DNA of 64,000 bases from Anadara kagoshimensis (Eukaryota > Mollusca > Bivalvia > Arcoida > Arcidae). Below are positions 15,701 through 63,989 of the stretch, piece after piece (within the stretch, counting starts at the first letter, position 1; the number at the start of each line of letters is the position of its first letter). The notes under the pieces were generated by a model. That model searched no databases and was not told the origin of the DNA. It saw only the letters and a program-made list of their open reading frames with translations. Both the position numbers and the translations under genes were made by a program. The DNA lies in the NCBI GenBank assembly GCA_021292105.1, contig CM037870.1, forward strand, positions 24,692,424 to 24,756,423, in the 5' to 3' direction.

Positions 15701-18700
15701 TGATCAAGATGCACAAGTCTGTATCAGTAGATTTTCCCTGCGGTATCAGGGAGGGGTGGGGATGGGTGGGGCAGTGTGCTAACTTTTAAACGGTTGAGAT
15801 CCCCACCCATAAACTATATTTTTCTGGTTCTACATAAAAAGTTGAATAGAGTGATGCTAAAGAAAATCCCATGGGGTCATTCCTGATGGAGGGTGGGGAC
15901 GGGCGGGGCTTGGTTCTAACTTTTAAATGGTTGATATCCCACCCTGAAACTATATATTTTCCGGTTCTGTTTTAAAAGTTGAATAGAGTGATACTGAAGA
16001 AATGCCCATGGCGTTTTCCAGAAGAGGGCAGGGACAGGCGGGGCTGGGTACTAACTTTTGATCAGTTGAGATCCCCACCCTTACCATATATATTTTCTTA
16101 TTCTTTATGAAAAGTTGAATAGATTGATACTAAAGTAAACCCATATGGACATTCCAATAGGAGGTTGGAGACAGGTAGGTCTAGTACTAACTTTGAGATC
16201 CCCACCCTCAAACTACAGTTTTCTTCATGGGCTGGTTGCTATCATTTTGTTTAAGAATTAAAACAATAAGCATGAATTTTCATTGTCAAGGATACTTAAG
16301 TAATCACTGATCCATGTCTAAAAGCTTTTAAGCTAAATCTTTTTATAAGCAACACTAATGGTCATTTGTCCCTGGGGCATGATTTATTATTCAATTCGAT
16401 AGAGTAGCTGCATTTAGTTATCAGTATGACATTATATGGGTAAATGCTTGGATTAATTTAAAATCAACACATCATTAGCTTATAGGTGATGTCAATCAAC
16501 TTTGCCTATTGTTTGAATTTCAACCAATTGGATTTGTACTACTTCTCTATATAAAATTAAATCTTAAAATGAAAAAATATTACAAGTTTAAAATTTCTCA
16601 ACAGTTTTTCTATTGTGTAGAACTTATTTAAAGGTTTAAAATTTTCAGCCGTTGCCATGGAAATGGAAAAAAGCAACAAAAGTACAAGTCTAATATGTGT
16701 TTTGAATACAGGGTTTGATTTTTATTCGTTTGGGCGCCTTATTTGTAATGATACATCCATCATTACATTAGTACTCGTTATTATTATTATTATTAAGGCG
16801 CCCAAACAAAGTTTGGCGACTTATTGTTTTTGCACCGTTTCTTATTATTAAGGCGCCCAAACAAAGTTTGGCGACTTATTGTTTTTGCACCGTTTCTTAT
16901 TATTATTATTATTCTTCCTCTTCTTCTTCTTCCGGCCATGAACTTGTCCAACCAATTTCTCGAAGACCGTTGGTCCAATCTTAACCAAACTTCACATGAA
17001 GGTTGATCCCCATCTCCTTCCCCAGAGGCCGAGGTAAAATGCCCATGGGGTCATTAGGGGAGGGGCAGGAGGGCGGGGTCTTAAAAACAATAATGATCAA
17101 TTTTGCCATTATACTTTATTTTTACTATAAAACCATATATATTCATGATCAGTATCTCAAGATGCACAAGTCTGTATCAGTAGATTTTCCCTGCGGTATC
17201 AGGGAGGGGTGGGGATGGGCGGGGCAGTGTGCTAACTTTTAAACGGTGAGATCCCCACCCATAAACTATATATTTTCTGGTTCTACATAAAAAGTTGAAT
17301 AGAGTGATGCTAAAGAAAATCCCATGGGGTCATTCCTGATGGAGGGTGGGGACGGGCGGGGCTTGGTTCTAACTTTTAAATGGTTGATATCCCACCCTGA
17401 AACTATATATTTTCCGGTTCTGTTTTAAAAGTTGAATAGAGTGATACTGAAGAAATGCCCATGGCGTTTTCCAGAGAGGGCAGGGACAGGCGGGGCTGGG
17501 TACTAACTTTTGATCAGTTGAGATCCCCACCCCTAACATATATATTTTCTTATTCTTTATGAAAAGTTGAATAGATTGATACTAAAGTAAACCCATATGG
17601 ACATTCCAATAGGAGGTGGAGACAGGTAGGTCTAGGTACTAACTTTGAGATCCCCACCCTCAAACTACAGTTTTCTTCATGGGCTGGTTGCTATCATTTT
17701 GTTTAAGAATTAAAACAATAAGCATGAATTTTCATTGTCAAGGATACTTAAGTAATCACTGATCCATGTCTAAAAGCTTCAAGCTAAATCTTTTTATAAG
17801 CAACACTAATGGTCATTTCCCTGGGGCATGATTTATTATTCAATTCGATAGAGTAGCTGCATTTAGTTATCAGTATGACATTATATGGGTAAATGCTTGG
17901 ATTAATTTAAAATCAACACATCATTAGCTCATCAAAACAATGGTTTGTGATATTGGGTATAGGTGATGTCAATCAACTTTGCCTATTGTTTGAATTTCAA
18001 CCAATTGGATTCATGTACTACTTCTCTATATAAAATTAAATCTTAAAATGAAAAGAATATTACAAGTTTAAAATTTCTCAACAGTTTTTCTATTGTGTGT
18101 AGAACTTATTTAAAGGTTTAAAATTTTCAGCCGTTGCCATGGAAATGGAAAAAAGCAACAAAAGTACAAGTCTAATATGTGTTTTGAATACAGGGTTTGA
18201 TTTTTATTCGTTTGGGCGCCTTATTTGTAATGATGCATCCATCATTACATTAGTACTCGTTATTATTATTCTTCCTCTTCTTCTTCTTCCGGCCATGAAC
18301 TTGTCCAACCAATTTCTCGAAGACCGTTGGTCCAATCTTAACCAAACTTCACATGAAGGTTGATCCCCATCTCCTTCCCCAGAGGCCGAGGTAAAATGCC
18401 CATGGGGTCATTAGGGGAGGGGCAGGAGGGCGGGGTCTTAAAAACAATAATGATCAATTTTGCCATTTATACTTTATTTTGTACTATAAAACCATATATA
18501 TTCATGATTATCTCAAGATGCACAAGTCTGTATCAGTAGATTTTCCCTGCGGTATCAGGGAGGGGTGGGGATGGGCGGGGCAGTGTGCTAACTTTTAAAC
18601 GGTTGAGATCCCCACCCATAAACTATATATTTTCTGGTTCTACATAAAAAGTTGAATAGAGTGATGCTAAAGAAAATCCCATGGGGTCATTCCTGATGGA

Positions 18701-20572
18701 GGGTGGGGACGGGCGGGGCTTGGTTCTAACTTTTAAATGGTTGATATCCACCCTGAAACTATATATTTTCCGGTTCTGTTTTAAAAGTTGAATAGAGTGA
18801 TACTGAAGAAATGCCCATGGCGTTTTCCAGAGGAGGGCAGGGACAGGCGGGGCTGGGTACTAACTTTTATCAGTTGATCCCCACCCCTAACATATATATT
18901 TTCTTATTCTTTATGAAAAGTTGAATAGATTGATACTAAAGTAAACCCATATGGGCATTCCAATAGGAGGGTGGAGACAGGTAGGTCTAGGTACTAACTT
19001 TGAGATCCCCACCCTCAAACTACAGTTTTCTTCATGGGCTGGTTGCTATCATTTTGTTTAAGAATTAAAACAATAAGCATGAATTTTCATTGTCAAGGAT
19101 ACTTAAGTAATCACTGATCCATGTCTAAAATCTTTTTATAAGCAACACTAATGGTCATTTATCCCTGGGGCATGATTTATTATTCAATTCGATAGAGTAG
19201 CTGCATTTAGTTATCAGTATGACATTATATGGGTAAAACTTGGATTAATTTAAAATCAACATCATTAGCTCATCAAAACAATGGTTTGTGATATTGGGTA
19301 TAGGTGATGTCAATCAACTTTGCCTATTGTTTGAATTTCAACCAATTGGATTCATGTACTACTTCTCTATATAAAATTAAATCTTAAAATGAAAAGAATA
19401 TTACAAGTTTAAAATTTCTCAACAGTTTTTCTATTGTATGTAGAACTTATTTAAAGGTTTAAAATTTTCAGCCGTTGCCATGGAAATGGAAAAAAGCAAC
19501 AAAAGTACAAGTCTAATATGTGTTTTGAATACAGGGTTTGATTTTTATTCGTTTGGGCGCCTTATTTGTAATGATGCATCCATCATTACATTAGTACTCG
19601 TTATTATTATTCCTCTTCTTCTTCTTCTTCCGGCCATGAACTTGTCCAACCAATTTCTCGAAGACCGTTGGTCCAATCTTAACCAAACTTCACATGAAGG
19701 TTGATCCCCATCTCCTTCCCCAGAGGCCGAGGTAAAATGCCCATGGGTCATTAGGGGAGGGGCAGGAGGGCGGGTCTTAAAAACAATAATGATCAATTTT
19801 GCCATTTTACTTTATTTTGTACTATAAAACCATATATATTCATGATCAGTATCTCAAGATGCACAAGTCTGTATCAGTAAATTTTCAGGGAGGGGTGGGA
19901 TGGGCGGGGCAGTGTGCTAACTTTTAAACGGTTGAGATCCCCACCCATAAACTATATATTTTCTGGTTCTACATAAAAAGTTGAATAGAGTGATGCTAAA
20001 GAAAATCCCATGGGGTCATTCCTGATGGAGGGTGGGGACGGGCGGGGCTTGGTTCTAACTTTTAAATGGTTGATATCCCACCTGAAACTATATATTTTCC
20101 GGTTCTGTTTAAAGTTGAATAGAGTGATACTGAGAAATGCATGACGTTTTCCAGAGGAGGGGGGACAGGCGGGGCTGGGTACTAACTTTTGATCAGTTGA
20201 GATCCCCACCCCTAACATATATATTTTCTTATTCTTTATGAAAAGTTGAATAGATTGATACTTAAGTAAACCCATATGGTCATTCAATAGGAGGGTGGGG
20301 ACAGGTAGGTCTAGGTACTAACTTTGAGATCCCCACCCTCAAACTATAGTTTTCTTCATGGAATGGCTGCTATAATTTTGTTTAAGAATTAAAACCATAA
20401 GCTTGAATTTTCATTGTAAAGGATACTTAATTAATCACTGATCCATGTCCAAAAGCTCTCAAGCTAAATCTTTTTATAAGCAACACTAATGGTCATTTAT
20501 CCCTGGGGCATGATTCATTATTCAATTCGATAGAGTAGCTGTATGTAGTACAATAATTTTTTAGAATAAAAG

Positions 20573-27533: not shown

Positions 27534-27893
27534 CCAAAAAGGTGGAGTTGTTGAGCATGGACATTTTTCAGTTTGAAATGAAATCGAAAATTGTACGGAA
27601 TATGGAGACTATTTAAAATAAGATTTTGAGCAGATACTGACATTGTACATTAGGCAACTTTCTAACAAAAAGATGTCACTTGAAAAAATTGTACAGTTTG
27701 GTAAAATATGGCTACAATCCATAAAAAACGGTGTTGTAGTAATAAGAAACATGGGTTAGTCCCGCATTTCATTCCTTACTTATTGTGTGGTCGCGGTTGC
27801 TTTGCCACTGCAAAATGCACGTTTCTTAGTTACTGGTTTCTCAATATTACTATATAATAATTTATATTTTGTAGATTTTACCGGAAATCAAAA

Positions 27894-29003
27894 ATGTCAA
27901 GACCACAGAATACAATCGTTTTGTTATTTATATGCGCCGTTACCATCGTGATTCTGTTGATGGCTTTATCAAGATGCCCAAACCAACCTGTACCGACGTC
28001 TCAGCGAATGCTTGATGGTCAGTTGGTCGAGGACAAGATTGACAGTTCAAAAACGAACATGAATAGTGGGAGTTTTGTTAATCAACCAAACTACAAGAGT
28101 CAACCATCAGATACAAATGACATGAGTCAACTTTCACCATCAGGAACGAAATTGGAGAATCAACTTTCGCCATCGGATACAAATTCAGAGGAAAGTAATT
28201 CGAAGTTACAGGGAAATTGGAATTTATTAGATAGTGTGTGTGAGGCGAAAGACGATTATGTTTTATCATACTTGAAAAAACCAAACAAGATCCCCATATA
28301 TGTGTACCCACCTAATGTTGACGCAATCATTTCGAAAGCTGTGCAGAGACTTGGCGGATATGAAATCGCTTACATGACTATGATTTATGATCTAATGAAG
28401 AAGAACCCGGATGCTACCTTTGTTGATATTGGCGCCAATATTGGCGTGTTCTCTTTAACCGCGGCAAATGCAGGAAACCCGGTCATATCTGTAGACTGCA
28501 TCAAGGCGAATGTATACAGAGTCTGTGCCGCAATGAAAAAAGCAAATTATATGGACAGGGTTACGGTTGTTCATAATGCCGTGTCGAATAAGCACGAAAA
28601 CGTTACGTTGATCAGGACAAAGTCAAATGTCGGAGGAACATTTATCAAAAATTATGAGCCTTCTCTTAGCACTTCTTATCAAACGAACGAAACTATTAAC
28701 ACAATTCTTTTAGAAGAGATTTTAGAAATTGCTCCTCTGAAATCTGTGATTTTAAAGATTGACGCAGAGGGAGCCGAAGCCGATATTTTAGCAGGAGGAG
28801 AGAAATTCTTTAAGAATGTATTTGTGAAGTACTTATTACTTGAAGTGTTATTCCAGCGAAATAAGCCAGGTGGACAATTCATCTTTGACTTTCTAAAACG
28901 GCATAATATGGAAATAATATACCCGCATGCTGGAGAAAATAATTTTGACCCAAATAATATCAAAACCTGGTATACAGTCTTGCTGAAAAATAAAAATGTC
29001 TAA
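27894..29003 (+). CDS. FkbM-type S-adenosylmethionine-dependent methyltransferase, membrane anchored, single exon
   Basis: A 369-residue intronless frame. Residues 6-26 (NTIVLLFICAVTIVILLMAL) form one hydrophobic segment after a short N-terminus with one Arg, as in a type II signal anchor, so the enzyme domain probably faces the Golgi or secretory lumen. Residues 30-108 are a Ser/Asn/Gln-rich low-complexity stem with repeated SPSDTN-like units. The catalytic domain follows from about 120: FVDIGANIGVFSL (176-188) is the SAM-binding glycine motif, DRVTVVHNAVS (221-231) the adenine-side strand, and KIDAEGAEADIL (288-299) the FkbM signature with its acidic residues. The family commonly O-methylates sugars or small metabolites; the substrate here is unknown. 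The start was chosen because it opens directly before the membrane anchor. An AG at 27872-27873 could be an acceptor for a 5' UTR exon. No poly(A) signal is obvious close by. Confidence 0.92.
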   Translation: MSRPQNTIVLLFICAVTIVILLMALSRCPNQPVPTSQRMLDGQLVEDKIDSSKTNMNSGSFVNQPNYKSQPSDTNDMSQLSPSGTKLENQLSPSDTNSEESNSKLQGNWNLLDSVCEAKDDYVLSYLKKPNKIPIYVYPPNVDAIISKAVQRLGGYEIAYMTMIYDLMKKNPDATFVDIGANIGVFSLTAANAGNPVISVDCIKANVYRVCAAMKKANYMDRVTVVHNAVSNKHENVTLIRTKSNVGGTFIKNYEPSLSTSYQTNETINTILLEEILEIAPLKSVILKIDAEGAEADILAGGEKFFKNVFVKYLLLEVLFQRNKPGGQFIFDFLKRHNMEIIYPHAGENNFDPNNIKTWYTVLLKNKNV

Positions 29004-48432: not shown

Positions 48433-48766
48433 TGAGTAATGATGTTTAACGTCCCAATCAAGTATATTTTACTTATTTCGAGACGTTGCCAGCTATAGGC
48501 GAAGGTGCAGAGACCTTGCCCGTGTGTTGCGATGATGACATTAAACAGCAGGGTTCTTTATTGTGCCACGCCTTCCGTGACATGGGACCTCATTAATTTT
48601 AAGTTCCCATCCGAAAGAACCATGACATTCATTTCGTAATTTCGAATGCTTGGCGAAAGAACAGTCACTATCCACTTTCAAGTCTTGGATCAGATCCGGT
48701 CGGGGTTCGAACCCACGACCTCCCACTTACGGAGCGAGCACTCTACCAACTGAGTTACTACAGTGG
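48433..48766 (-). mobile_element. SINE family 1, inverted, complete
   Basis: TTGAGTAATGATGTTTAACG at the left (inverted tail) to CTACCAACTGAGTTACTACA at the right (inverted box A). It ends about 160 bp before the start codon of the first 16-Cys gene. Confidence 0.92.
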
Positions 48767-48849
48767 TTACTCTAGCAAATGAGCTATCGTAGTTGTTTTA
48801 TCATAAAAGAAAAAAGGAAGTTCAGACAAAGGTCAAAGGGTAAGCAAAT

Positions 48850-48924: not shown

Positions 48925-50203
48925 ATGTCCTCGATTTTCCAGTTCGTTTTGTTGTTAACAGCAATATGTCTTTGTCACGGATTTTTAGAAGTTTGTAAGT
49001 ACTAATCACTGTGGAATCACTTGTTTTCGTGGGTGTTACAATTTCGTGGTTTTGAAAATTTTAAAACATTTCGTTGAAAGAAAATTGTTGTTGACACTTA
49101 ATTTCGTGGTATTCACTGACCCAAATAAATAACGAAATTAAATCACCCTCGGATATTTGCAATTTTACAATATTGTTCAAATGTATCTATTGTTTTGATT
49201 TGAACACTAACCATTTATGGTTTTAACATGCAGACCTTTGTTCAGAAAACCAAGTCGTTTGAATTTCGATGTATTTGTCTTTAATAACAGCATTGTGAAG
49301 TATATGTAATGAATGAAGGGAAATCTTTGGAACATGTTGATTTTTGTTTTTAAAAAATGTTCCGGAGCACCCGGCCTCACTTCCCTGGTGGAAGTTCCGG
49401 GTTTAATCTTAATTTGCCAGTATTTTAAGTACCGGTATCACTTTGCTGTGTGATTGTGTTTTGGGCATGGATTGGTATGTTTGTTATTAATTTTAGGCGT
49501 TAAAACTCAACAATTAGCATTGTGGCTTTATTTGAATTATGCAGCTCACTATTGAAGGTTACAAGGAAATTCGCATGTTTTCATGTTGGTTTACCCACGG
49601 ATATTAATGATATTACAGTATTACTTAATTTTTACAAAAATGAAGTAAGGTTGGGCTACAAAAACAGGGCAAATAATTATACATGACCTAAAATAAGCAG
49701 GATCGTGAGTCTCTTGGTCATGACCATGTATTCTACAATCAACATATAATAAGTGAAGATGCGGAGCTAAGATTCTTGTAAACAATATTTGTAGATTACT
49801 TTGAACCCGCGAGTATCACATTTCGCGTACCAAACCCTAAGCGTTATTTCGCGAACATGTAAATCCGTGTGAATATTCTTTAAAAGTGTGTCATGTTAAT
49901 AATATGCAATTTCCACGGTCATGGGCGAATGCCGACATTTTCTCAATTCTGGGAATATATATATACGCGTGATATATAAATTCACGACCGAGAGTCCTCG
50001 CGAAATTACACGTTAATAAATCTCTCGTTTTTCTATATAGCCTGTCCAATAGGATGTTCTGATACTGTGTGTTACACCAGCGGCTGCTTTAACTGTAAGC
50101 CTGGTTACTGCCGAAAATATGACACTAGGAGCAAGTAAGTACAGGGAACCTAAAAATTGGCGGGGCAATATCGCACCAGTTAATTTATGTGAGTTGCAGA
50201 AAA

Positions 50204-50257
<54 letters not shown>

Positions 50258-52706
50258 GTTTTACGTCCCATTCAGAAATATTTCACTTATATCCAAGTCA
50301 CGTGTGCTCAGGGCAATATACAAGAATTGTTCTTTAGTTATTCGGAACATTGGTTTTTAAGATCATTTCCGTAGGACCCCGTGACGTTCATTTCGAAAGA
50401 ACAGTCACTTCCCCTTTAAAAGTCTAGGTCAAACCTGTCGTGGTTCGAACCCTAGATTCTGCATTCTTCCAACTCAGCTACCGTAATGGTTGAAATGTAG
50501 ATTTCGCGTCGACAGCTGAACCCAATAGGCTTCCGTACTCTTGAACCCAATAGGCTTTCGTACTATTGAACCCAATAGGCTTCCGTACTCTTGAACCCAA
50601 TAGGCTTTCGTACTCTTGAACCCAATAGGCTTTCGTACTCTTGAACCCAATAGGCTTTCGTACTATTGAACCCAATAGGCTTTCGTACTCTTGAACCCAA
50701 TAGGCTTTCGTACTCTTGAACCCAATAGGCTTTCGCACTCTTTGCTTGTTCTGATTGCAATTTCTATTTCTGTTACAGAATTTCATATTGTTTACTTCAA
50801 AGTGTTGGATGTGGAGAAGGATATTACTGCCGTAACGGAGACTTTTGTACATGTATGTTGAATCAGTTATTGGGTAATATGTGGATCTAAGTGCAGTACA
50901 GACGTGTCGAAAATTTAACGCTAATGAAATATAGTAAATAGCACTGCTGCCGAGTGACGGAGATATGAATAGATTTCGGCCTGAAATTTGAAAATACATA
51001 ACGAGCAGCTGGCGATGTGTTAAACTTTCGACAGGTCTGTACTGTGAACATCTAAACTTAATTGTGGAATGGAGCACAATAAAAGTGTTTTAGGCCCTGG
51101 TTAGATTTTTTTGCTTATTTTGAGGCTGTCAAATCAAAGATGGTGGAGAAAAATACCGACTTTCGCAAGAGAAAACTCGACAATTTTTATCAAACAAGGA
51201 TCTGGCAATTCTGCCTAGTGTAAAAGTCGAAACTAGACGATGAGAGCTGTAATCCTTGAGCCGACGTTTATACCACTTGGCCACTAAAACCCTAAAACAA
51301 ATAAGGGTCTACATGGAAAACTAAACGAAGGCAAAATATGAAAGAAACCACAAATTGATAAATTTTGAGCTAGCAAAATGAAAAAAGCCAACACAACCAA
51401 TTGCAAAAACACGAAAGAATACAGACCAAACAAATACAGGGTAAACAATACAGGGTAAACAAATACAGACCAAACAAATACAGGGTAAACAAATACAGAC
51501 CAAACAAATACAGGGTAAACAAATACAGACCAAACAAATACAGGGTAAACAAATACAGACCAAACAAATACAGGGTAAACAAATACAGACCAAACAAATA
51601 CAGACCAAACAAATACAGGGTAAACAAATACAGACCAAACAAATACAGACCAAACAAATACAGACCAAACAAATACAGGGTAAACAAATACAGACCAAAC
51701 AAATACAGGGTAAACAAATACAGACCAAACAAATACAGACCAAACAAATACAGACCAAACAAATACAGACCAAACAAATACAGACCAAACAAATACAGAC
51801 CAAACAAATACAGACCAAACAAATACAGACCAAACAAATACAGACCAAACAAATACAGACCAAACAAATACAGGGTAAACAAATACAGACCAAACAAATA
51901 CAGGGTAAACAAATACAGACCAAACAAATACAGGGTAAACAAATACAGACCAAACAAATACAGGGTAAACAAATACAGACCAAACAAATACAGGGTAAAC
52001 AAATACAGGGTAAACAAATACAGACCAAACAAATACAGGGTAAACAAATACAGACCAAACAAATACAGACCAAACAAATACAGGGTAAACAAATACAGAC
52101 CAAACAAATACAGACCAAACAAATACAGACCAAACAAATACAGACCAAACAAATACAGACCAAACAAATACAGGGTAAACAAATACAGACCAAACAAATA
52201 CAGGGTAAACAAATACAGACCAAACAAATACAGGGTAAACAAATACAGACCAAACAAATACAGGGTAAACAAATACAGACCAAACAAATACAGGGTAAAC
52301 AAAAAGGCCTATTGAGTTTAATTTGGTAGAACAAAAAAAATATTTTTTTTTTAAAAATCTCGAAACTTATAAAACGCAAAATAACACTTTTTTCGAGAAA
52401 GAAACATATAATTTCGCGAAAAAACATATTTTTGCGAAATAAACGCGTTAATAGGCTAATATAGGCGAATTTTTTTCTACAAAATCAAGCTCAATAACCT
52501 TTCGTAACAAACACATATTGGAAACATTGATTATGAAATAAATGTAAATAATTGATTTCTACAGATCAAAGGAAGGCTGTATTTTGTTTTTTGCAGCTTG
52601 TCTTGTAGATCATTGCAGTCACTGTTTAGGAGACCACCTATGTGGCCGATGCAAGTCGGGTTATCGACTTGATGACAGTTCATCCTACTCAAGTAGTTGT
52701 GTGTGA
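48925..52706 (+). CDS. Small secreted 16-cysteine protein (first of a tandem pair), four exons
   Basis: Exons 48925-48994, 50041-50134, 50779-50852 and 52597-52706, phases 1-2-1, all with GT-AG borders (three GTAAGT/GTATGT donors). The product is 115 residues. Residues 1-19 (MSSIFQFVLLLTAICLCHG) are a signal peptide. The mature part has sixteen cysteines spaced C-x3-C-x4-C-x4-C-x2-C-x4-C-x11-C-x6-C-x5-C-x5-C-x2-C-x4-C-x2-C-x5-C-x2-C-x15-C. Motifs include SCPIGCSDTVCY, GCGEGYYC and CKSGYRLDDSSSY. I do not recognise the family; the CxxC and C-x4-C rhythm recalls furin-like or EGF-like repeats. The paralogue at 55392-59200 keeps every cysteine and the same intron phases. Exon 4 ends in SSSCV-stop, followed by AATAAA at 52810. 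Extracellular action is likely; the role is unknown. Introns hold a 24-bp array, a 15-bp array and a MITE. Confidence 0.87.
49001..49795. other. Intron 1 of the first 16-Cys gene, left part
   Basis: Holds TTTCGTGG-rich sequence at 49020-49110 and the dispersed motif GGCCTCACTTCCCTGG at 49374. No alternative exon was recognised. Confidence 0.5.
49796..50030 (+). repeat. Dispersed CGCGAGTATCACATTTC repeat (intronic)
   Basis: It starts GATTACTTTGAACCCGCGAG and ends CGCGAAATTACACGTTAATA then AATCTC. The same block, with a longer middle, lies at 59303-59602 downstream of the second paralogue. Its right end adjoins the polypyrimidine stretch of the exon 2 acceptor. Confidence 0.85.
50195..50500 (-). 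mobile_element. Diverged SINE family 1 with long (GATT)n (intronic)
   Basis: (GATT)n at 50204-50256 is followed by TTTACGTCCCATTCAGAAAT, then the family-1 body reversed, to an inverted box B TGGTTCGAACCCTAG and CAACTCAGCTACCG. Confidence 0.85.
50511..50745. repeat. 24-bp tandem array, ~10 copies (intronic)
   Basis: CCCAATAGGCTTTCGTACTC recurs every 24 bp, with two alternating variants (TACTCTTGAA / TACTATTGAA) and occasional TTCC for TTTC. It lies in intron 2 of the first 16-Cys gene. Because 24 is a multiple of three, it opens a 199-codon minus-strand frame that is not a gene. Confidence 0.97.
50894..51044. mobile_element. MITE, CAGTACAGACCTGTCGAAAG family, 151 bp (intronic)
   Basis: The left end CAGTACAGACGTGTCGAAAA and right end CTTTCGACAGGTCTGTACTG are inverted repeats of ~26 bp. 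It starts 42 bp after exon 3 of the first 16-Cys gene. The clearest two-ended copy of the family here. Confidence 0.85.
51045..51419. other. Intron 3 of the first 16-Cys gene, spacer
   Basis: Unique AT-rich intronic sequence with no exon signal. Confidence 0.5.
51420..52303. repeat. 15-bp minisatellite with two alternating unit types, ~58 copies (intronic)
   Basis: The units are CAGACCAAACAAATA and CAGGGTAAACAAATA. They differ only at three adjacent bases (ACC/GGT) and are otherwise almost invariant for ~880 bp. The order is mostly strict alternation, with a run of ten ACC units in the middle and shorter runs elsewhere. A period of 15 leaves frames open on both strands (up to 368 codons). 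None is a gene: the tract sits in intron 3 of the first 16-Cys gene. Confidence 0.98.
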
Positions 52707-52809
52707 CCTTAGGATAGAAAGACGAAACAGCATGGCGCCTTAGGTTAGAGAGAGAGAAAGATGGAGCCAGCGGTTGTTATAAAATGAAACAGATTAACAC
52801 AACCAATGG

Positions 52810-52815
52810 AATAAA
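52810..52815 (+). terminator. Poly(A) signal of the first 16-Cys gene
   Basis: AATAAA 104 bp after the stop codon, overlapping a second AATAAA. Confidence 0.7.
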
Positions 52816-52829
52816 TAAATTTGGAGAAA

Positions 52830-53271
52830 TCATTAACAATCCTTTGTTTTAATTCCACCTGTACATATAAAATCACCATGTAATGTTTATTCTATAGAAG
52901 CCAAATGGCCCCATTTATAAGGCCTTACTGGGGCAAATGTAACATTGTAAACATAAATATTGATTTTATGGAGTTTTAGAGATTTTTTTTTAAAATGATC
53001 TTAGATTGAACATTGTCTATGGGACCCAAATATATGGACGAAGTACACGTATTTAAAAAAATATATTCTTTTATGTTCCATAAGTTAAAGGGCAAAGGAA
53101 TTTTGACTTTAACTCTAGTTCCAATAAACAGGTAGTCTTTACATAGAGGAGGGCGTCGCTAAAACAATTTTACTTTACAAAAAGGCCTTGAGTAATAAAT
53201 TGTGATTTACAGATTGATTGATTATTAGCTTCAAATATCCGTGTACTCTGTAAAGCAACAACCCAATATAC
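52830..53271. other. No gene recognised
   Basis: Spacer between the first paralogue and a foldback element. No coding signal. Confidence 0.5.
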
Positions 53272-53316
53272 TGTCAAGTGCTACTAAAATAATGCATTCA
53301 AAAGTAGCACATGACA
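53272..53316. repeat. Small foldback, TGTCATGTGCTAC family
   Basis: TGTCAAGTGCTACT at the left faces AAAGTAGCACATGACA at the right; the loop is shortened relative to other copies. Confidence 0.78.
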
Positions 53317-53650
53317 ATACTGCTATTGGTACCACTGTATAGATAGTTCCCATGTGACGTCATACTGTAGCGGCCATTTTGGTAGGCATTAGAAATTAAG
53401 TCCTATTAATTCTTACTAAAATAGGGTGTATAAAATTTAGTGTCACATCGTTGTTATGGGGACAAAAATCTTATAAAATACACTAAATCAAAGTACAATC
53501 ATTGAACATTTATAAATTTAAAAACTGAATTGATATCCTGATTACTTTTTGAAGTATCTATAGGCGTGACTATTCATGTTAGATTGTCCACCCATTGTCA
53601 GAATTCGCAGTTAATACATAAAAATACACATTTCCCATTATATAGACGAT

Positions 53651-53930
53651 TGATTGATTGAATTGAGTTTAACATCCAGTCAAGAATAATTCACTCATAT
53701 CAAGACGTCACCAGCTATAGGTGAAGTGACAGACTTTTTTTTAACCTTTTCAGTGCTCTTAATGAGGTTAATGTGCAGGGAAACGTGCCACTCCTGTCGC
53801 GATTTTAAGGTCTCTTCCGAGGGACCCCGTGACTTCATTTCCAAATGCCGAGTGTTGGCGAAAGATAAATCACTACCTATTGTCAGGTATTGGTCAGGCC
53901 AGGCTGGGGTTCGAACCGTAGTGGTCATTA
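53651..53930 (-). mobile_element. Diverged SINE family 1, inverted
   Basis: GATTGATTGAATTGAG (inverted tail), TATCAAGACGTCACCAGCTA, TCCGAGGGACCCCGTGAC and GGGGTTCGAACC (inverted box B) in order. Confidence 0.85.
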
Positions 53931-54707
53931 TGTAGACGAGATGATGTAAACTCATATGGTCCCTATACATAAATACGCCGGTAAATTATATGATATTTAA
54001 ATTAAAGGTCAAACAGACAAGTCAATGTTGTTTGTCTATACATATATTACACCCCCTGATCTATGACCTGCGAGATTGGGCCTTCGGTGACTGAATGGTC
54101 TTATGACCCTTCAGAATCAATGGCTCTCGTCGCATAAATTCGAATATCCAACTCGGTTAAATCCTATATATAGAGCTCGCTGCGACGTAAAACCGTTTTT
54201 GTTCATGCGGCATTAGCTTTCAAAATATGATTTGATTTTGGATCCATATTTGAGTCTACTTAAATCTCTTAGACAAGGTTATTCAAACGCCAATCCTTGT
54301 AACATCGACCGTCAATATTTGACCTTGGTTCAAGAACACAGCAATGAGTAATTGAAATCATCTGTGTGAAGTTCCATGAAATTTTCTCAAGACACCAATA
54401 AAGTATAGCTATATCGATTGTCATGGGTCTGTGTGCAATTGGTAAATCAGTCTACATTTTAGTCTCATAGAGGGAGGGGGACTTCTGTAGTCGAGTAATG
54501 TAAAGCGATCCCTAAGGATCGAATCAAAGCACCTCTTATTGCCTAGATTCGATTCCCACTAGGGGGCAGTTTGCTAAGAAAGTTTGTCAATTCACTTACT
54601 AAAGGTTCGGACACTCCGGTTTCCTCTCCACCTCCCATGAACGGACCCTTGATTTGGACGTAAATCCGGACGTTACCACCACTCCATTCCACTCCTCCAC
54701 TAAATTA
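53931..54707. other. No gene recognised; SINE family 4 fragment
   Basis: A fragment at about 54545-54700 has GATTCGATTCCC, GTTTGTCAATTCACTT, GGACACTCCGGTTTCC and GGACGTTACCACC, matching pieces at 39785 and 62600. The rest is unremarkable. Confidence 0.5.
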
Positions 54708-55052
54708 ACCACTGCGGTAGCTCAGTTGGTAGAGTGCTCGCTCCGTAAGTGGGAGGTTGTGGGTTCGATCCCCGGCGGGGTCTGACCCAAGACTTGAAAG
54801 TGGGTAGAGACTATTCTTTCGCCAAGCACTCGGAACACGAATTGAAAGTTACGGTTCTTTCGGAAGGGAACTTAAAATAAACGAGGTCCCGTGTCACGGT
54901 GGGCTTGGCATGATAAAGAACCATGATGTATAATGCAATCAGCGCAACGCATAGGCAAAATTTCTGCACCTTCGCCTATAGCCTATAGACGTCTCGATGT
55001 AAGTGAAATATTCTTGACTGGGACGTTAAACACCATTGCTCAACTCAACTCC
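54708..55052 (+). mobile_element. SINE family 1, (CTCAA)n tail
   Basis: Near-consensus head GGTAGCTCAGTTGGTAGAGT and body, ending CTCAACTCAACTCC. It lies ~340 bp upstream of the second 16-Cys gene. Confidence 0.94.
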
Positions 55053-55105
55053 TCCACTGAATTCATATTCTTTATTATTGAATTTAATTTCATCTAAATT
55101 TATGA

Positions 55106-55300
55106 GTCAAACTGCCTACACAAAGGTCATTGATGAGAACACGACTCAAACTGCCTACACAAAGGTCATTGATGAGAACACGACTCAAACTGCCTACACA
55201 AAGGTCATTGATGAGAACACGACTCAAACTGCCTACACAAAGGTCATTGCTGAGAACACGACTCAAACTGCCTACACAAAGGTCATTGATGAGACCACAA
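55106..55300 (+). repeat. 39-bp tandem array, five copies
   Basis: ACTGCCTACACAAAGGTCAT recurs every 39 bp at 55111, 55150, 55189, 55228 and 55267, with only two or three differences. It ends ~90 bp before the start codon of the second 16-Cys gene. It reads as a 13-residue repeat (TQTAYTKVIDENT), but there is no support for expression. Confidence 0.96.
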
Positions 55301-55363
55301 CTCTTATCTTAAAATTAAAGAAATACTAGTCATATGTCAAAAGGATTCTATTATAATTAAAGC

Positions 55364-55385
55364 GATAAGAATGTTGTCTACAAAA
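55364..55385 (+). promoter_or_regulatory. Upstream block conserved between the 16-Cys paralogues
   Basis: GATAAGAATGTTGTCTACAA aligns with the block at 48870-48889. A GATA core leads it, and an AT-rich TATAATTAAA lies just before, at 55351-55360. It ends 7 bp before the ATG. Confidence 0.4.
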
Positions 55386-55391
55386 TACAAA

Positions 55392-55562
55392 ATGGCTCTA
55401 ATTTTGCGGACTTTTATCTTGGTTGTAACAATTTGTGTTTGCCAAGGGTTCTTAGATACCGGCAATTTATTTCAATTTGGTAAGTCATCTTCCTCCTCCT
55501 CTCTCTTCCTCTCCCTGTCAGAATTACTCGTCATCTGAAAAAAAGTTAACAACGTAACTCTT

Positions 55563-55598
<36 letters not shown>

Positions 55599-57943
55599 AA
55601 AAAAACAACTTACTATCAGAAAAAAATTAACCGTAACTCACTCACTCAGTAGGTTCTTTTCGTAGAACGTTTGAAATTGGAAATCTTAATTCCTGGCAGA
55701 TGTCGCTTCTCACTAAAACTCTGACGTCATCACATACAGTTAAATAAAAAAAAATAAAATTGTTTTGTTGAAACAAATAATGTCTTTTTGTCATGCTACA
55801 CAATTATGGTTCAAGAAAATGTCCACATTTTAAGACGATGAATATGGACATTAATTGTTACACAGTGTTAGACCTATTGTTGCTTATGTACAGGGCTCAT
55901 TTGAAACATGCCTTAAAACTCCAAATAAAGACAAACGCACCAAATAAAGTCTGGCCTGAATTTAATAGTCAGCATATAATACTCCTGCATAACACCAACG
56001 TTTTTCTATACCCCTATCATGTGCTGTTTTTGAATTTCTATTTTTAATTGCATTCAAAAACAGCACAGCACAGTTGTCATGTGCTGTTTTTGAATGTATT
56101 ATTTTAATAAAAATTTAAAAACAGCACATGACACCCCTGTAAAAGTGCCAACGTGAGTGTCCCATGTTCCTGCGAATCTTCATGTCCCTTACATTTGCGT
56201 CAGCTTCAGTGTCTATACCACCGCTGTTCAATATCCAGTAAGCGTAAGTCTACCGTACCCGGCGTTTACGTGTGAGTTAGCGTCAGTGTCCATACGCGTA
56301 CGGTCACGTTAGTGTCAGTGTCAGTGTCTCAACCGCGCCGTTTGCGTCAGCGCAAGTTTCCAATACCCGGTGAAGCGTTAATGTCCCACACCCTATCGCC
56401 AGTTTTAGCGCGAGTATTCCATTACCCGTTATAAGGGTCAATGTACATTTATGCCCCATGTTAAGCTTTTGATGGGCTAGATCACAGGGGCCAGTTTCAT
56501 AATAAAATTTTTAAAAAAATACCGATAAGTATATAAAAAAGAGTAAAGGGGAACAATGAATCGGATCTTTCACTTGTGGGTGCTCTGACAAAACTCTACA
56601 TTATTTTTTTTTAATTTGTGTCCGAACATCGTGATCTTGATGTCATTTTGTTTCCAGATAAATATTCTTTAAGTTGGAGTTCAATTTTTGGACATAATTT
56701 AAAATCTTAATAAAATGTTCAAACGAAAAACACAGAAAAACAGTGTAATTTTGCCCGATGTAGCTAAGCCCATCTATGTAAAAGTAGCTTAAAATTCGCA
56801 TTACGCTCATGTTTTTCACTACCAGCGTCCGTATCAACTACAAATGCTGATGTCGATCGAAGAACTTAATAAAAAGCAATAAATTTCAAAGGTAACCGTT
56901 ACTCCCTTCTAAATCTACAAGCTATTATATCCTATTTTGTTCCAACACTATGTAAACTATGTTTCTGTGCTTTCCGTTTTAACATTTTATTTAGATTTTA
57001 AATTATGTCCAAAAATTGAATGCCAAATTAAAGAATATTTATCTGGGAACAAAATGACACCAAGATTACGATGATCGGACACGAATTAAAAAAGTAATGT
57101 AGAGTTTTGTCGGAGCACCTACACTTGAAAGATCCGATTCGTTGTTCCCCTTTACTCTTTTTTATATACTTATCGGTATTTTTAAAATTTTATTATGAAA
57201 CTGGCCCTGTGGGCTAGATGTACAGGCAGCCGATGCTGTTTTATGGCGTTTTTTGTTTTTTATTTTAAATATAGATTGTCCAATAGGATGTGCTGATTCT
57301 GTGTGTTACAGCTTTGGTTGCTCAAGCTGTGTGTCAGGTTACTGTCTGAAGTCAACAAATAGCCCCAGGTCTGTATCATTTTCGTTTTTATGACATCATT
57401 AATAAAAGACATCTCAAAAGAAACTTCTATGGTGTATAGTATCGTATATAGACCCTGCAAATTCTGTGAACGACATACATTGATTATTTTTTTTATTGTT
57501 TTTGTTGTTGAAGTTGTTGTTGTTATTGTCGTTTTGATGTCGTTTTGTTGTTGTATTTGTTTCGTAATCTGGTACAAAACAAGATTTCTTATCGCAAATA
57601 CTTTTCAGACAAGAACTCAGTTTTATTTTTGATAAACTCCAAATTTAAAGTCACACTTTAAGTACAAGCTTGTTCGAAGTTTAACCGTAACGAATTAGCA
57701 CCAAACAAGCAACTCGTTTCTGTCCCTCGTTGGCTATATCATCTCTGGACAGCGTTTTGGTCACTAGTTATCCATATCTCGGACATTTGACAGCCGAGTT
57801 GCGACTCCTCTCCGTCAGATCAGTGTTAAATTTTCGACAGGTCTGTACTGTAAACATCGGTATTGTACAAGTCGTCCATCAACACATCGATAAAAGTGTT
57901 TTTAAAGTTGCTAAATGGAAAGAATGTTTAAAATGTGATCGAT

Positions 57944-57979
<36 letters not shown>

Positions 57980-59200
57980 GGGATGAGTGACTGACTGACT
58001 GACTGGTTGATTTTCTGATTGATTGATTGATTGATTGATTGGGGGTTAACGTCCGAGTTAAAACTATATCACTTATGTCGAGACGTCACCAGCTATAGGT
58101 GAAGCGACAGTTCTACCATGGAGAAACACAGTATTGTCTTTTGTTTTAATGAAAGCATTATAACTTCGTATAAGATTGTAAAAGGTGCAACTGCAATAAT
58201 TAATTGATTGGTTCATCGTTGTTTTACGTCACATCGGCAATTTAAGCATTTAAAGACGAACCATATCATTTCTGATTATTTTGAAGATTACTCAAGTTCG
58301 TTAGGTAACGGAGTTGTGTGCACGTGTTTTTAACCACAGACATTGAGACAACGAGTTAATGCCTTTCGCGTGGAAAATCTCTTTTTCAACCAGTCGGGGC
58401 GCAACTTTAATTTAGTGCATCTTCATATTCAATACTTCCAACAATCGAGAAATGTTGTTGTTTCATGAACATATGTCTATTACTGATTGTATTTCAGATC
58501 TGTGACGATGTATTGTGTACCAGAAGATTCATGTGGAGAAGGAAAATACTGTTATCACGGGGTTTCCAATGTTTGTACATGTAAGTCAGTAAAGTATATT
58601 AATTAAATATTTATCATTTGACTTACAAGTCTATTAAGTACTTTTATTTAGTAAGCACTTGTCGGTTTATACCTACACGGTTGTACAAACTGAGATACCC
58701 GGCTATCCAAGAGCCCGGTTTTCTTCATTCCTTCCTTCTTTTTTCGATCAAATTATGTATTTTGAATAGAAATTAAAGAAACCACAAGTTTCAGCTATTC
58801 TGAGACCAATCTGTTGGCCAGTCACTTCAATTTCCCAGGGAAGGACGAGCGTGACAAGTGTAGCAGGAAAGGGGAGAATGCAGCGACCAAACCAGGACTC
58901 GAACCCGGGAAATAAATTACACCTGGCGAAGGGCCACCAGAATACAGCCTACGAGGGCTAAAAAGGTCTTTGGCATCGGCGCTTATCCGTTTACTTAAAA
59001 TTAAAACTGTACATTAATAAATGTTTGTTTTTTTTTTTTTTTTTTTACCAGCCTGTGGTGTCGACCACTGTGATGTTTGCGCCGGAGAGCGACATTGTAA
59101 GACGTGTAAATCAGGGTACCGTCTAGATGACAGCTCCTCGTATCGAAGCAGTTGTGTATCCATATACGGCAAGAGAGAAGGGAGGAACATTGAGAAATAG
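55392..59200 (+). CDS. Small secreted 16-cysteine protein (second of the pair), four exons
   Basis: Exons 55392-55479, 57275-57368, 58498-58580 and 59052-59200, phases 1-2-1, GT-AG borders. The product is 137 residues. MALILRTFILVVTICVCQG is the signal peptide. All sixteen cysteines of the neighbour are kept: C-x3-C-x4-C-x4-C-x2-C-x4-C-x13-C-x5-C-x5-C-x7-C-x2-C-x4-C-x2-C-x5-C-x2-C-x15-C. Exon 2 has the same length as its counterpart (94 bp). CPIGCADSVCY, CGEGKYC and CKSGYRLDDSSSYRSSC are the shared motifs. It differs from the neighbour in an extra NLFQF-type stretch after the signal, three more residues in exon 3, and a C-terminal extension VSIYGKREGRNIEK where the neighbour stops. The GKR in that tail could be a processing site. 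Secreted, function unknown; clearly a tandem duplicate. Confidence 0.89.
55563..55597. repeat. (CT)n microsatellite (intronic)
   Basis: CT run in intron 1 of the second 16-Cys gene. Confidence 0.95.
56017..56133. repeat. Two adjacent small foldbacks, TGTCATGTGCTG type (intronic)
   Basis: At 56017-56066, ATCATGTGCTGTTTTTGAA faces TTCAAAAACAGCACAG. At 56075-56133, TGTCATGTGCTGTTTTTGAA faces TTTAAAAACAGCACATGACA. These carry GCTGTTTTT where the other copies have GCTACTTTT, and form a tandem pair. Confidence 0.92.
56483..57211. mobile_element. 729-bp foldback with ~220-bp arms and 8-bp target duplication (hAT-like, intronic)
   Basis: The ends CACAGGGGCCAGTTTCATAA and TTATGAAACTGGCCCTGTG begin arms of ~220 bp with high mutual identity. 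Paired landmarks include GAGTAAAGGGGAACAATGAA / TTCGTTGTTCCCCTTTACTC and ATTTTTGGACATAATTTAAA / TTTAAATTATGTCCAAAAAT. GGCTAGAT flanks both ends exactly (56475-56482 and 57212-57219). Only ~280 bp separates the arms and no transposase fits. The 8-bp duplication and CA(C)AGGG ends suggest a hAT-derived MITE. It lies in intron 1 of the second 16-Cys gene, 63 bp before exon 2. Confidence 0.95.
57660..57850. mobile_element. MITE, CAGTACAGACCTGTCGAAAG family (intronic)
   Basis: AGTACAAGCTTGTTCGAAGT at the left faces TTTTCGACAGGTCTGTACTG at the right. It lies in intron 2 of the second 16-Cys gene. Confidence 0.75.
57941..58115 (-). mobile_element. (GATT)n tails and SINE family 1 3' end (intronic)
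   Basis: Two GATT runs (57945-57978 and 58017-58040) separated by ACTGACTGACTGACTGG, then GTTAACGTCCGAGTTAAAAC and TGTCGAGACGTCACCAGCTA of the reversed SINE body; the rest of the SINE is missing. Confidence 0.8.
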
Positions 59201-59252: not shown

Positions 59253-59258
59253 AATAAA
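59253..59258 (+). terminator. Poly(A) signal of the second 16-Cys gene
   Basis: AATAAA 52 bp after the stop codon. Confidence 0.75.
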
Positions 59259-60500: not shown

Positions 60501-63500
60501 CTACAATTTGGTTGTCGAGCCATTTGCATATTTTTGATAATGATCTTCGTTAGAATTGACTTGCACCGAACCATTGTATTCAAGCTGGTACGTTTGCATC
60601 CTTTCGTTAGTATTCACGCCGCCGTTTCCGGTTATCCAAGACACAGGATTGTTAATTTCAGTCATTTCCGGTTGTTGAAATGGCTGATCAAAAGAATCTT
60701 TCCTGAAACCAAAATTGTCAATAGAACCTTTTCGTTTTAGTACATTCACAGAAATGTTTATATCAATATCATCGTCATCGTCTTTAGCCCATTCCTGTTC
60801 TTCTCCACTACCAATCACCGTGAACACTAACGACCCAACAACTGCCACGCCCACACAAATGAAGAAAACAATTTGCCATTCTTCTCGCGTTCCCTGCAAT
60901 ATGGTGTGGAATAAAATAATAATAGTGACATTTGCTTATTTTGATTTTTTTAAAAATAAAATTTAGTATTTAAAAAAAACTTAAACACAATTGCTGATTT
61001 TAAAAAAATATCACATTGCAGTATGATACGAAATGAAAATATAGATCATGGAGAAAAATGCACTGTATAAACATTGACCTATCCAACTGACCATTTATTA
61101 CGGACAATTACCTGAACGTCCGAATAACTATCCATTCCTTAAAAATATAATATAATGGAACAGAGACCCTAAAGGGGTCGAGAAACATTGTTTTTAATGA
61201 ATGGAGAGTTATGAGGATTTTCGCCCCTTCATTTTAAGCAAGTGATTGGGAAACAAAAACTCTCTACTCCTCGGAAAAGTTTTTTTAACATATTACTTAG
61301 AATACTACCCACTTAAAGTAACGGATTGGTATATAATAACTCTCCATTCCTTTAAAGTGTTTTAAGAGATCAACTCACTTCTGATCATGAGTTAAAATCA
61401 TGCAGTTCTACATGTATTGGATAGCTATTGTTATTATCCGAATTCATTCATTTCTGATATGATCGAAGACGAGTCAGTTGCATCATGTCAACATGCTGAA
61501 GAACATTCCCGATTTAGATAAAAAAATTAATAAAAATAGACGAAAAATTGCCAATATGCAATTCAAAACGTACAATACCATAGGAAGAAATGGTAATGAA
61601 AGGAAAGAGAAAAATATTGCTTCCAAATTGGGACTCGAACCCGGGACTTTTCCCAATACTTTCTGAACACATTGGAGGCTTTTGTTACGAATTTTCTTTA
61701 TGTCCTGTTGTACAAAACCGGGGGTTTTAAAAAGTCAGGGAACTGTAAACTCAATGCTAATGTCAACCGTTGTATGTGCAAGTTCGAAACTACGAATCCT
61801 AACACATATCTTGTATTTGGTCGATTCTCCTATATGAATAGTCCAAATGAAAGGTCAAGCAGACAGGTCAATGCCGTTTACTTATACTTGATAATAGGCT
61901 TAACTTAAGGTTGTTTTAGAATCACCATTTGTCCGCGCAAGGCTATCGTTCAACACCACATGGATCGCCGTACGTGAGCGTGAGTCGAATACTTTCGTTT
62001 AGAACATTAAAATCACATGGTCCTTCTGAAGAGACCGTTGTACCTTGTCACAGCAAGCGTGTCAAGTTATAGAACCCTCCCTGCATATTGTCCTGCGAGC
62101 ACTGAAAATGTCAAATTTTCTGCCACTTAACCTGCAGCTGGTGACTTTTCGAAATATTCTTAACTGGAACGTAAAACCACATCTCATCAATCAATCTTAG
62201 CATCAACTATTTTAGAATAAATGCTTACATTTTTAGTGATTTCGGATGTTATGACCGGTGATAGAAGAGCGGCCACCGATGCGGCTGACGTAGTCATGCC
62301 ATTTAAAACACCAGCAAACCTACACGAAATAAAAACACGAGAAACTGTAATATGAAAAAAAAGAAAATAACAGCTGACAAAAATTAAAGGCCCAAACAAC
62401 ACACTACAATCGATTAGATGAAACAAGGATTACAGGGCATACCCTTAGTGAGACAGCTTGATCATGTACGAAGCTGACGGGTTTCATCATGCAACACTAA
62501 AAGATTATTGTTGTTTCAATTTTGTTGTTTTCATGGTCACCTTTTTTTCTCGAGTTCACTTCGGTGGCCAAGCTCTATTACTAGCCGGTTTATGGATCAC
62601 AAAGCTGCTTATCGCATGGGTTCGAATCTTGCTTGTGATTGTGACGGACCCTAGTGTAAGGAAGTTTGTCAGTTCCCTTGCTCAAAGTCGGTGTTTTTTC
62701 GGGTACTCCGGTTCCATCTAAGGATTTTAGCTCGAAATAAGTAAAATACAGTGACTGGGTCGTAAAATACAATTGCAACACCTAATTTACTCTTTTCTAA
62801 AATGAGAGAGAGAGAGAGAGAGAGAGTAAATATGGAACCATATGAGTTGGTTACACGTACTTTGGTGCTATATCTAGATGGTTTACTCTGAACCCAGCAT
62901 TTGTGGTTGATTGTACTGTCCAGTATATAACTATAAGAACTACTATCAAATCCCTGCTTTCTTTACCAAGAAAACTGACCCACAGTATAAAGGGAGATGA
63001 TCCTACGAATCCTGAAATTAGACGCAACAAATAAAATTCATGAAACTAACTCACATGTATTTTATAGATTTTATAATCATTACATTGTAAATGTTATTAT
63101 AAGAATATACAGATTATACTAGTGCATATTAACTAAAACACTTCATTATGACTGACTAGATAAACATTTCCAATCAAACCAGACATAAGTAAGAGTTTGA
63201 TCCTATTTCTCTAAAAACTTTGATTTAAGAGCATGATGTTATTAATCAGGTGTTAACTTATCACAGCTTTACCTTAAAGGCAATGTGAATCCAAATGAAA
63301 TGGGGATTTGGGCGTGGTTTTGAAACCAATTTGCGGTATACACGAGACCTATCGAAATCAAGTCGAAGTTCAACTGATGTGGGTGAAAATGGATAGATAG
63401 TGACCAAAAAACTGTTGAGAGATAAATAACAACTACTAAAAACTTTCAAGATTTAGAAACAAGGGTCCGAGATGAGCTGCCGATATTTGGCAAAAAGCCG

Positions 63501-63746
63501 TTATCTTATTGCCTTACTTTCGACAAGCCTTTGTTGTATGGTTTTTTATTATGATAATTATTGAAAAGAAAAGAAAGAAACATTGTATGTTACACAATAC
63601 ATTTCGTACTTACCAAATATGAGAAAAAGTTTACGAACTGTGGAAACGCTCAGATATCTTTTAGATATCAGTCTGTCAGCTAGAAGACCGCTAAGTATAG
63701 AGCCGACAAATCGTCCAATGAAAGGCAACGATGACAGAACACCATT
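60501..63746 (-). CDS. SLC17-type organic anion / phosphate transporter, C-terminal four exons (partial)
   Basis: Exons in transcript order: 63746-63614, 63011-62861, 62319-62229, 60893-60501; phases 0, 1, 2, 0 join without conflict and all borders are GT-AG. They encode 254 residues. The first gives NGVLSSLPFIGRF...LADRL...STVRKLFLIFG, the second FVGSSPFILW...NAGFRVNHLDIAP, the third FAGVLNGMTTSAASVAALLSP, and the fourth TREEWQIVFFICVGVAVVGS then SGEEQEWA. These are the conserved TM8-TM12 landmarks of the SLC17 major-facilitator family (LSSLP, STxxVRK, GFxVNHLDIAP, AGxLxG, EEWQxVF, SGExQxWA), whose members move anions such as sialate, glutamate or phosphate. The substrate cannot be assigned. 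A ~94-residue hydrophilic, acidic cytosolic tail (DDDDDIDI) is unusually long. The 5' exons lie beyond the window. Confidence 0.94.
60900..61949. other. Intron of the SLC17-type gene, left part
   Basis: AT-rich intronic sequence. An inverted B-box-like GGGACTCGAACCCGGGAC at about 61630 hints at a decayed tRNA-derived repeat. No exon was found. Confidence 0.5.
61950..62180 (+). mobile_element. Diverged SINE family 1 (intronic, opposite to the gene)
   Basis: CATGGTCCTTCTGAAGAGAC, CCTTGTCACAGCAAGCGTGT and CTGCCACTTAACCTGCAGCT in order; the head is degraded. Confidence 0.7.
62600..62775 (+). mobile_element. SINE family 4 fragment (intronic)
   Basis: GGGTTCGAATCTTG (box B), GTTTGTCAGTTCCCTTGC, AAGTCGGTGTTTTTTCGGG and a GACTGGGTCGTAAAATAC end. 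Similar to 39785 and 54580. Confidence 0.65.
63012..63613. other. Intron of the SLC17-type gene, right part
   Basis: AT-rich; CTTTCGACAAGCCTTTGTTG at 63517 is one arm of the 45386/50894 MITE family. No exon was found. Confidence 0.5.
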
Positions 63747-63814
63747 CTGTGCAATATAAACCAGTACGTTTGAAAACAAAACGAAGAATGACTCTTAATA
63801 TTATATAGCCAAAC

Positions 63815-63989
63815 ATGTCTATAAAGGTCATCCAAGGGAACCAGTAAAATGGTCTTTATGGGCAGATGGTCTGAATGTACAGGTTCAAATAATATAAATA
63901 AAGAACAATTGGGTTACAATTCTACTAGCCTTTATAAACAGGTGGTCCTGATATAGAGGTGGCCTTAAAGGCAGGTTGGACTGTATGTA
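63815..63989 (+). mobile_element. MITE, ACAGTCCAACCTG ends (second copy)
   Basis: TAAAGGTCATCCAAGGGAAC, ATGGTCTTTATGGGCAGATG and AAACAGGTGGTCCTGATATA follow the order of 31273-31455. It ends GGCAGGTTGGACTGT. Confidence 0.78.

Follow-up and report, generated by a model that had tools for sequence, protein, structure and literature searches.

R-spondin-like Fu1-Fu2 proteins encoded by a tandem gene pair of the bivalve Anadara kagoshimensis

A 64,000-nucleotide stretch of the Anadara kagoshimensis genome (NCBI GenBank assembly GCA_021292105.1, contig CM037870.1, positions 24,692,424 to 24,756,423 of the forward strand; the window, numbered here from its first letter) contains two genes on the same strand, A (48925-52706) and B (55392-59200), which are predicted to encode cysteine-rich proteins of 115 and 137 amino acids, respectively. 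A preliminary description had left their family unrecognised, and the locus raises the question of which family the two proteins belong to and what they may do. Comparison with known sequences indicates that the family can be named: mature A and B resemble, over most of their length, the pair of furin-like repeats (Fu1 and Fu2) of R-spondins. In our view, A and B are probably long-established tandem copies coding for small, probably secreted R-spondin-type Fu1-Fu2 proteins (Fu1 encoded by exons 2 and 3, and Fu2 by exon 4) that contain little else and would act in extracellular binding.

Matches to the R-spondin furin repeats

With A as query, a sequence search of the PDB returned R-spondin-1 Fu1-Fu2 at an E-value of 7.1e-4 over residues 25-109, while B returned R-spondin at E 0.027 and a joint two-sequence profile of A and B did so at E 4.5e-4. 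R-spondin 1 or 2 made up 7 of the 8 PDB sequences matched at E<=10 by A, all 11 matched by B and all 12 matched by the joint profile, the single other match being a DNA polymerase epsilon chain (E 0.38). Searches of Pfam and NCBIfam with the full precursors gave no match. When Pfam was searched again with the mature proteins, with the N-terminus removed and the tail of B left off, PF15913 (Furin-like_2) was the sole match of each, in co-linear alignments (residues 10-88 of A to profile positions 7-87, and 13-91 of B to 10-87). The 39-residue Fu2 pieces matched this family with 16.3 bits for A (E 0.012) and 15.1 bits for B (E 0.028). Fu1 of A alone found no match in the PDB, and a Foldseek search with a predicted model of exon 4 of B listed RSPO1 (4bso) as top match with a root-mean-square deviation of 1.8, but at E 4.2.

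Controls consisted of shuffles in which every cysteine was fixed and the remaining residues were shuffled. The Smith-Waterman score of A against RSPO1 Fu1-Fu2 (113) was reached by none of 2000 such shuffles and that of B (97) by one of 2000, and three shuffles searched against the PDB returned no R-spondin at E<=10. For single repeats, Fu1 of A scored against RSPO1 Fu1 with a z of 4.2 (reached by 3 of 3000 shuffles), and Fu2 against RSPO1 Fu2 with a z of 3.8 for A (1 of 3000) and 3.7 for B (3 of 3000), while all four cross pairs with Fu1 and Fu2 swapped stayed at chance (z <= 0.4). By sequence, the Fu1-then-Fu2 order appears firm for A; in B, Fu1 would be assigned its place only when the protein is taken as a whole.

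Several results weigh against this assignment and speak for an alternative in which A and B consist of generic furin-like or other cysteine-rich repeats, their R-spondin likeness having arisen by convergence on a cysteine pattern, with a role in defence or in shell or byssus matrix. The scores are weak: PF15913 gave 11.2 bits with mature A and 11.6 bits with mature B, under a gathering cut-off of 28, and RSPO1 itself gave 159.1. The E of 0.027 for B is unconvincing by itself because one shuffle obtained E 0.081 with an unrelated protein, and Fu1 of B alone is indistinct from its shuffles (320 of 3000 reach its score). Fu2 pieces yield mixed weak matches, that of A matching IBR_1 at a marginally better E than PF15913 with DUF7630 and Zn_ribbon_4 also listed, and the exon-4 profile alone placing R-spondin-1 at the top of a PDB search (E 0.077) among 13 mixed matches. 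The partial cysteine pairing and the missing contact residues described below count in the same direction, and bivalves commonly possess secreted cysteine-rich families arranged in tandem. However, the cysteine-preserving shuffles fail to reproduce the match, A and Fu2 of B show a specific repeat order, and no EGFR, insulin-receptor or TNF-receptor chain appeared at E<=10 in the whole-protein PDB searches with A, B or the joint profile. Weighing both sides, we regard convergence as unlikely.

Gene structure and constraint

The models of A and B are sequence-based, with splicing predicted. All exons lie on the plus strand, all six introns are bounded by GT and AG with phases 1-2-1 in both genes, and the reading frames are open up to the stop. 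In gene A, exon 1 (48925-48994; exon hidden Markov model, HMM) carries the ATG and a hydrophobic N-terminus (likely signal peptide) and ends in phase 1 right before the first Fu1 cysteine. Exon 2 (50041-50134) encodes the N-terminal half of Fu1, with five cysteines placed with those of RSPO1 (one off by one column in a plain alignment) and an extra cysteine in GYC, and exon 3 (50779-50852) encodes the C-terminal half, with three matching cysteines and an extra one in YYC. Exon 4 (52597-52706) encodes a shortened Fu2 with six cysteines, five of them aligned with RSPO1, and ends in a TGA stop, with a polyadenylation-like AATAAA (52810-52815) 104 bases past it. In gene B, exon 1 (55392-55479; exon HMM) carries the ATG, a hydrophobic N-terminus (likely signal peptide) and a short spacer, exons 2 (57275-57368) and 3 (58498-58580) encode the N- and C-terminal halves of Fu1, and exon 4 (59052-59200) encodes a shortened Fu2 followed by a 13-residue tail, SIYGKREGRNIEK, and a TAG stop, with AATAAA (59253-59258) 53 bases past it.

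Exon 2 is 94 nucleotides long in both genes, and exons 1, 3 and 4 differ in length between them. Intron 1 directly precedes the first Fu1 cysteine and intron 3 the first Fu2 cysteine, both introns being of phase 1, and Fu1 (exons 2 and 3) therefore forms a phase 1-1 module split by intron 2. Each protein has 18 cysteines: two belong to the hydrophobic N-terminus (judged by eye), and the 16 of the mature part pair in full between A and B. Exon coordinates and alignment thus bear out the preliminary description of a same-orientation tandem pair with common intron phases, an exon 2 of equal length and mature cysteines that align at all 16 positions, and A and B are confirmed, within predicted splicing, as a real pair of four-exon genes; their sequences likewise support its view of them as disulfide-rich, tandem-duplicated and probably secreted. 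Exon-wise HMMs detected no further convincing copy within the window (next best E 0.24 or worse). The introns hold repeats of their own: a 25-bp minisatellite of 9 copies in intron 2 of gene A (50517-50742), another with a 30-bp unit and about 29 copies in its intron 3 (51428-52303), and, in gene B, a fold-back element within intron 1 (56502-57196), whose inverted arms (56502-56610/57088-57196 and 56607-56747/56953-57093) are 89% complementary.

The C-terminal near-identity noted earlier is upheld, with all 13 residues of CKSGYRLDDSSSY identical between A and B, and the strong divergence claimed for the other mature residues is roughly so: among aligned mature positions other than cysteines, A and B agree at 39 of 75, and at 24 of 59 ahead of the last 18. 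The last 18 codons differ by 13 synonymous and 2 non-synonymous changes, a pattern which marks two constrained coding genes beyond chance. Over the mature codons, pS is 0.70 and pN 0.27 (Nei-Gojobori), corresponding to a dN/dS of about 0.16, which is a rough average over codons because dS is saturated. A and B are, by these codon comparisons, old copies under purifying selection on average, and the label fast-evolving, if read as positive selection, is not supported. Whole introns of the two genes do not align, and blastn of the two gene regions gave 11 pieces, most of them at positions that do not correspond; one lies around the point where exon 2 begins in each gene.

Cysteines, contact residues and proposed roles

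In a plain alignment to the 16 cysteines of RSPO1, A pairs 12 and B pairs 13, the third cysteine of A lying one column off and RSPO1 C125 standing opposite Ser in both. When cysteine-cysteine pairs are scored higher and gaps penalised less, 14 of the 16 pair in each protein, the last cysteine then falling on C129; we take it as the counterpart of C125, with C129 as the alternative, because the chain of A ends there. A match of all 16 cysteines to a named family, which the preliminary description had set as grounds against its own reading, is thus found in part, and at least two R-spondin family cysteines are absent from A and B. From the last cysteine of Fu1 onward into Fu2, A, B and RSPO1 share the spacing 2-4-2-5-2. 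Fu1 also has two extra cysteines (in A, C47 and C72); we infer that they bond to each other, forming an additional bridge. Each R-spondin Fu domain is reported to comprise three hairpins with four disulfides (PMC3905715). Fu2 of A and B has six cysteines and then ends, so that it apparently lacks the third hairpin. A stops one residue past its last cysteine, and the tail of B has four Lys/Arg and two Glu. This tail (59159-59197) contains a GKR that is absent in A; GKR is a type of site at which peptide hormones are cut and amidated.

A metazoan survey (PMC12111769) characterises the R-spondin family as having two furin-like repeats and a TSP1 domain, and reports the ZNRF3/RNF43 contacts R66 and Q71 and the LGR4 contacts F106 and F110 to be near-universally conserved. 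Alignment to RSPO1 places Lys and Lys at R66 and Q71 in A, and Thr and Ser in B, while F106 and F110 correspond to Leu and Leu in A and to Ala and His in B; G73 is Ser in A and Thr in B, and R70 is retained as Arg in both. Both frames stop after Fu2 without TSP1 (PF19028), and the sole WxxWxxC-like string in the six frames of the window, at 30.6 kb, crosses stop codons, in a motif scan which an intron-split motif could escape. No long basic C-terminal region follows Fu2 in either protein. The candidate identification of A and B as true R-spondins was rejected for want of TSP1, the basic region, the four contact residues and at least two family cysteines; as predicted, the two proteins are R-spondin-like and not R-spondins. 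A further alternative is that the models are wrong, A and B being either R-spondin genes with a missed TSP1 exon or pseudogenes, and both the sequence-only origin of the models and the limit of the motif scan leave room for this. Open frames, GT-AG sites, strong constraint, AATAAA after both stops and the stops within the one WxxWxxC-like string argue against wrong models, which we consider very improbable.

We propose that A and B would fold as a beta-hairpin ladder that some eight disulfides stabilise and in which the last hairpin of Fu2 is missing. Seven of these disulfides may be R-spondin-like, following the R-spondin pairing pattern, which we assume to apply here, and one would be the extra bridge within Fu1. 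The proteins would most likely act as diffusible extracellular binders, either as a ligand or as a receptor decoy, whose shared contact surface would be the end of Fu2, a strictly constrained segment (KSGYRLDD...SSCV), since the strongest constraint between A and B lies there and the remainder has diverged. Among the roles suggested earlier (defence, shell/mantle or signalling), homology leans to signalling, the function itself being conjectural.

R-spondins set the number of Wnt receptors shown by a cell. A sub-case of the R-spondin-type reading, which we find doubtful, places A and B on this axis, where they would potentiate Wnt weakly or, with higher probability, serve as antagonists or decoys of ZNRF3/RNF43 or LGRs, with Fu1-Fu2 freed from the heparan-binding part. 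RSPO3 without TSP/BR still signals, its reported EC50 being 9.8 nM, compared with whole-protein values of 0.046 and 0.11 nM (PMC7239654), so a module without TSP1 can be active, and A has a hydrophobic Leu at both Phe-clamp positions. However, alanine changes at contact residues are reported to abolish or disrupt R-spondin binding. The Phe-clamp positions differ between A and B, so binding of LGR in the R-spondin manner is improbable, and a new binding partner appears more likely than a role on the Wnt axis.

A wider proposal, which we offer tentatively, is that A and B are lineage-specific Fu-only derivatives of R-spondins, without the receptor contacts and with a new disulfide, that were re-purposed via the conserved Fu2 end into ligands of another receptor or decoys for it, or into natural ZNRF3/LGR antagonists. 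If true, a module kept without its contact residues would exemplify how a receptor-binding module gets re-used, and A and B might be a source of a Wnt modulator or decoy of natural origin. Such a family would be easily missed because its Pfam scores lie under the cut-off and because the metazoan survey retained a protein only if it carried PF15913 together with PF19028 (PMC12111769), so that Fu-only proteins like A and B would have been excluded by design; the demand for a TSP1 domain would then constitute a blind spot.

Surroundings and comparison with known systems

Elsewhere in the window, a tandem array with unit spacing mostly of 1341-1452 bases and sub-repeats of about 135 bases occupies 13043-20325, and a 380-codon open frame at 27861-29000 contains an FkbM methyltransferase domain (PF05050, E 3.7e-9). 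Exon-like pieces at 60504-63913 on the minus strand resemble an SLC17-type membrane transporter by eye, three tested pieces giving no Pfam match at E<=0.01. By eye, tRNA-like (SINE-like) sequences in opposite orientations lie at 54710-54780 and 48680-48770, and ARAGORN found no tRNA genes in the window.

Among known systems, the R-spondin Fu domains are reported to be similar to the cysteine-rich regions of the EGF receptor family (PMC3905715). These regions would be like A and B in general fold; however, they are parts of receptors, whereas A and B would be small free proteins, and they are unlisted in the whole-protein PDB searches. RSPO4 orthologues occur in Mollusca, Annelida and Brachiopoda, according to the survey (PMC12111769), and a source of Fu1-Fu2 therefore exists in protostomes; these RSPO4-type R-spondins are set beside A and B here by description. 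Like R-spondins (RSPO1-4; PF15913), A and B have a hydrophobic N-terminus and then two furin-like repeats in the same order, with 12 (A) or 13 (B) of the 16 cysteines plainly aligned and the cysteines spaced alike as far as the beginning of Fu2. Unlike R-spondins, they have no TSP1, long basic tail, R66, Q71, F106 or F110, and they combine a short Fu2 and two extra Fu1 cysteines with scores below the Pfam gathering threshold.
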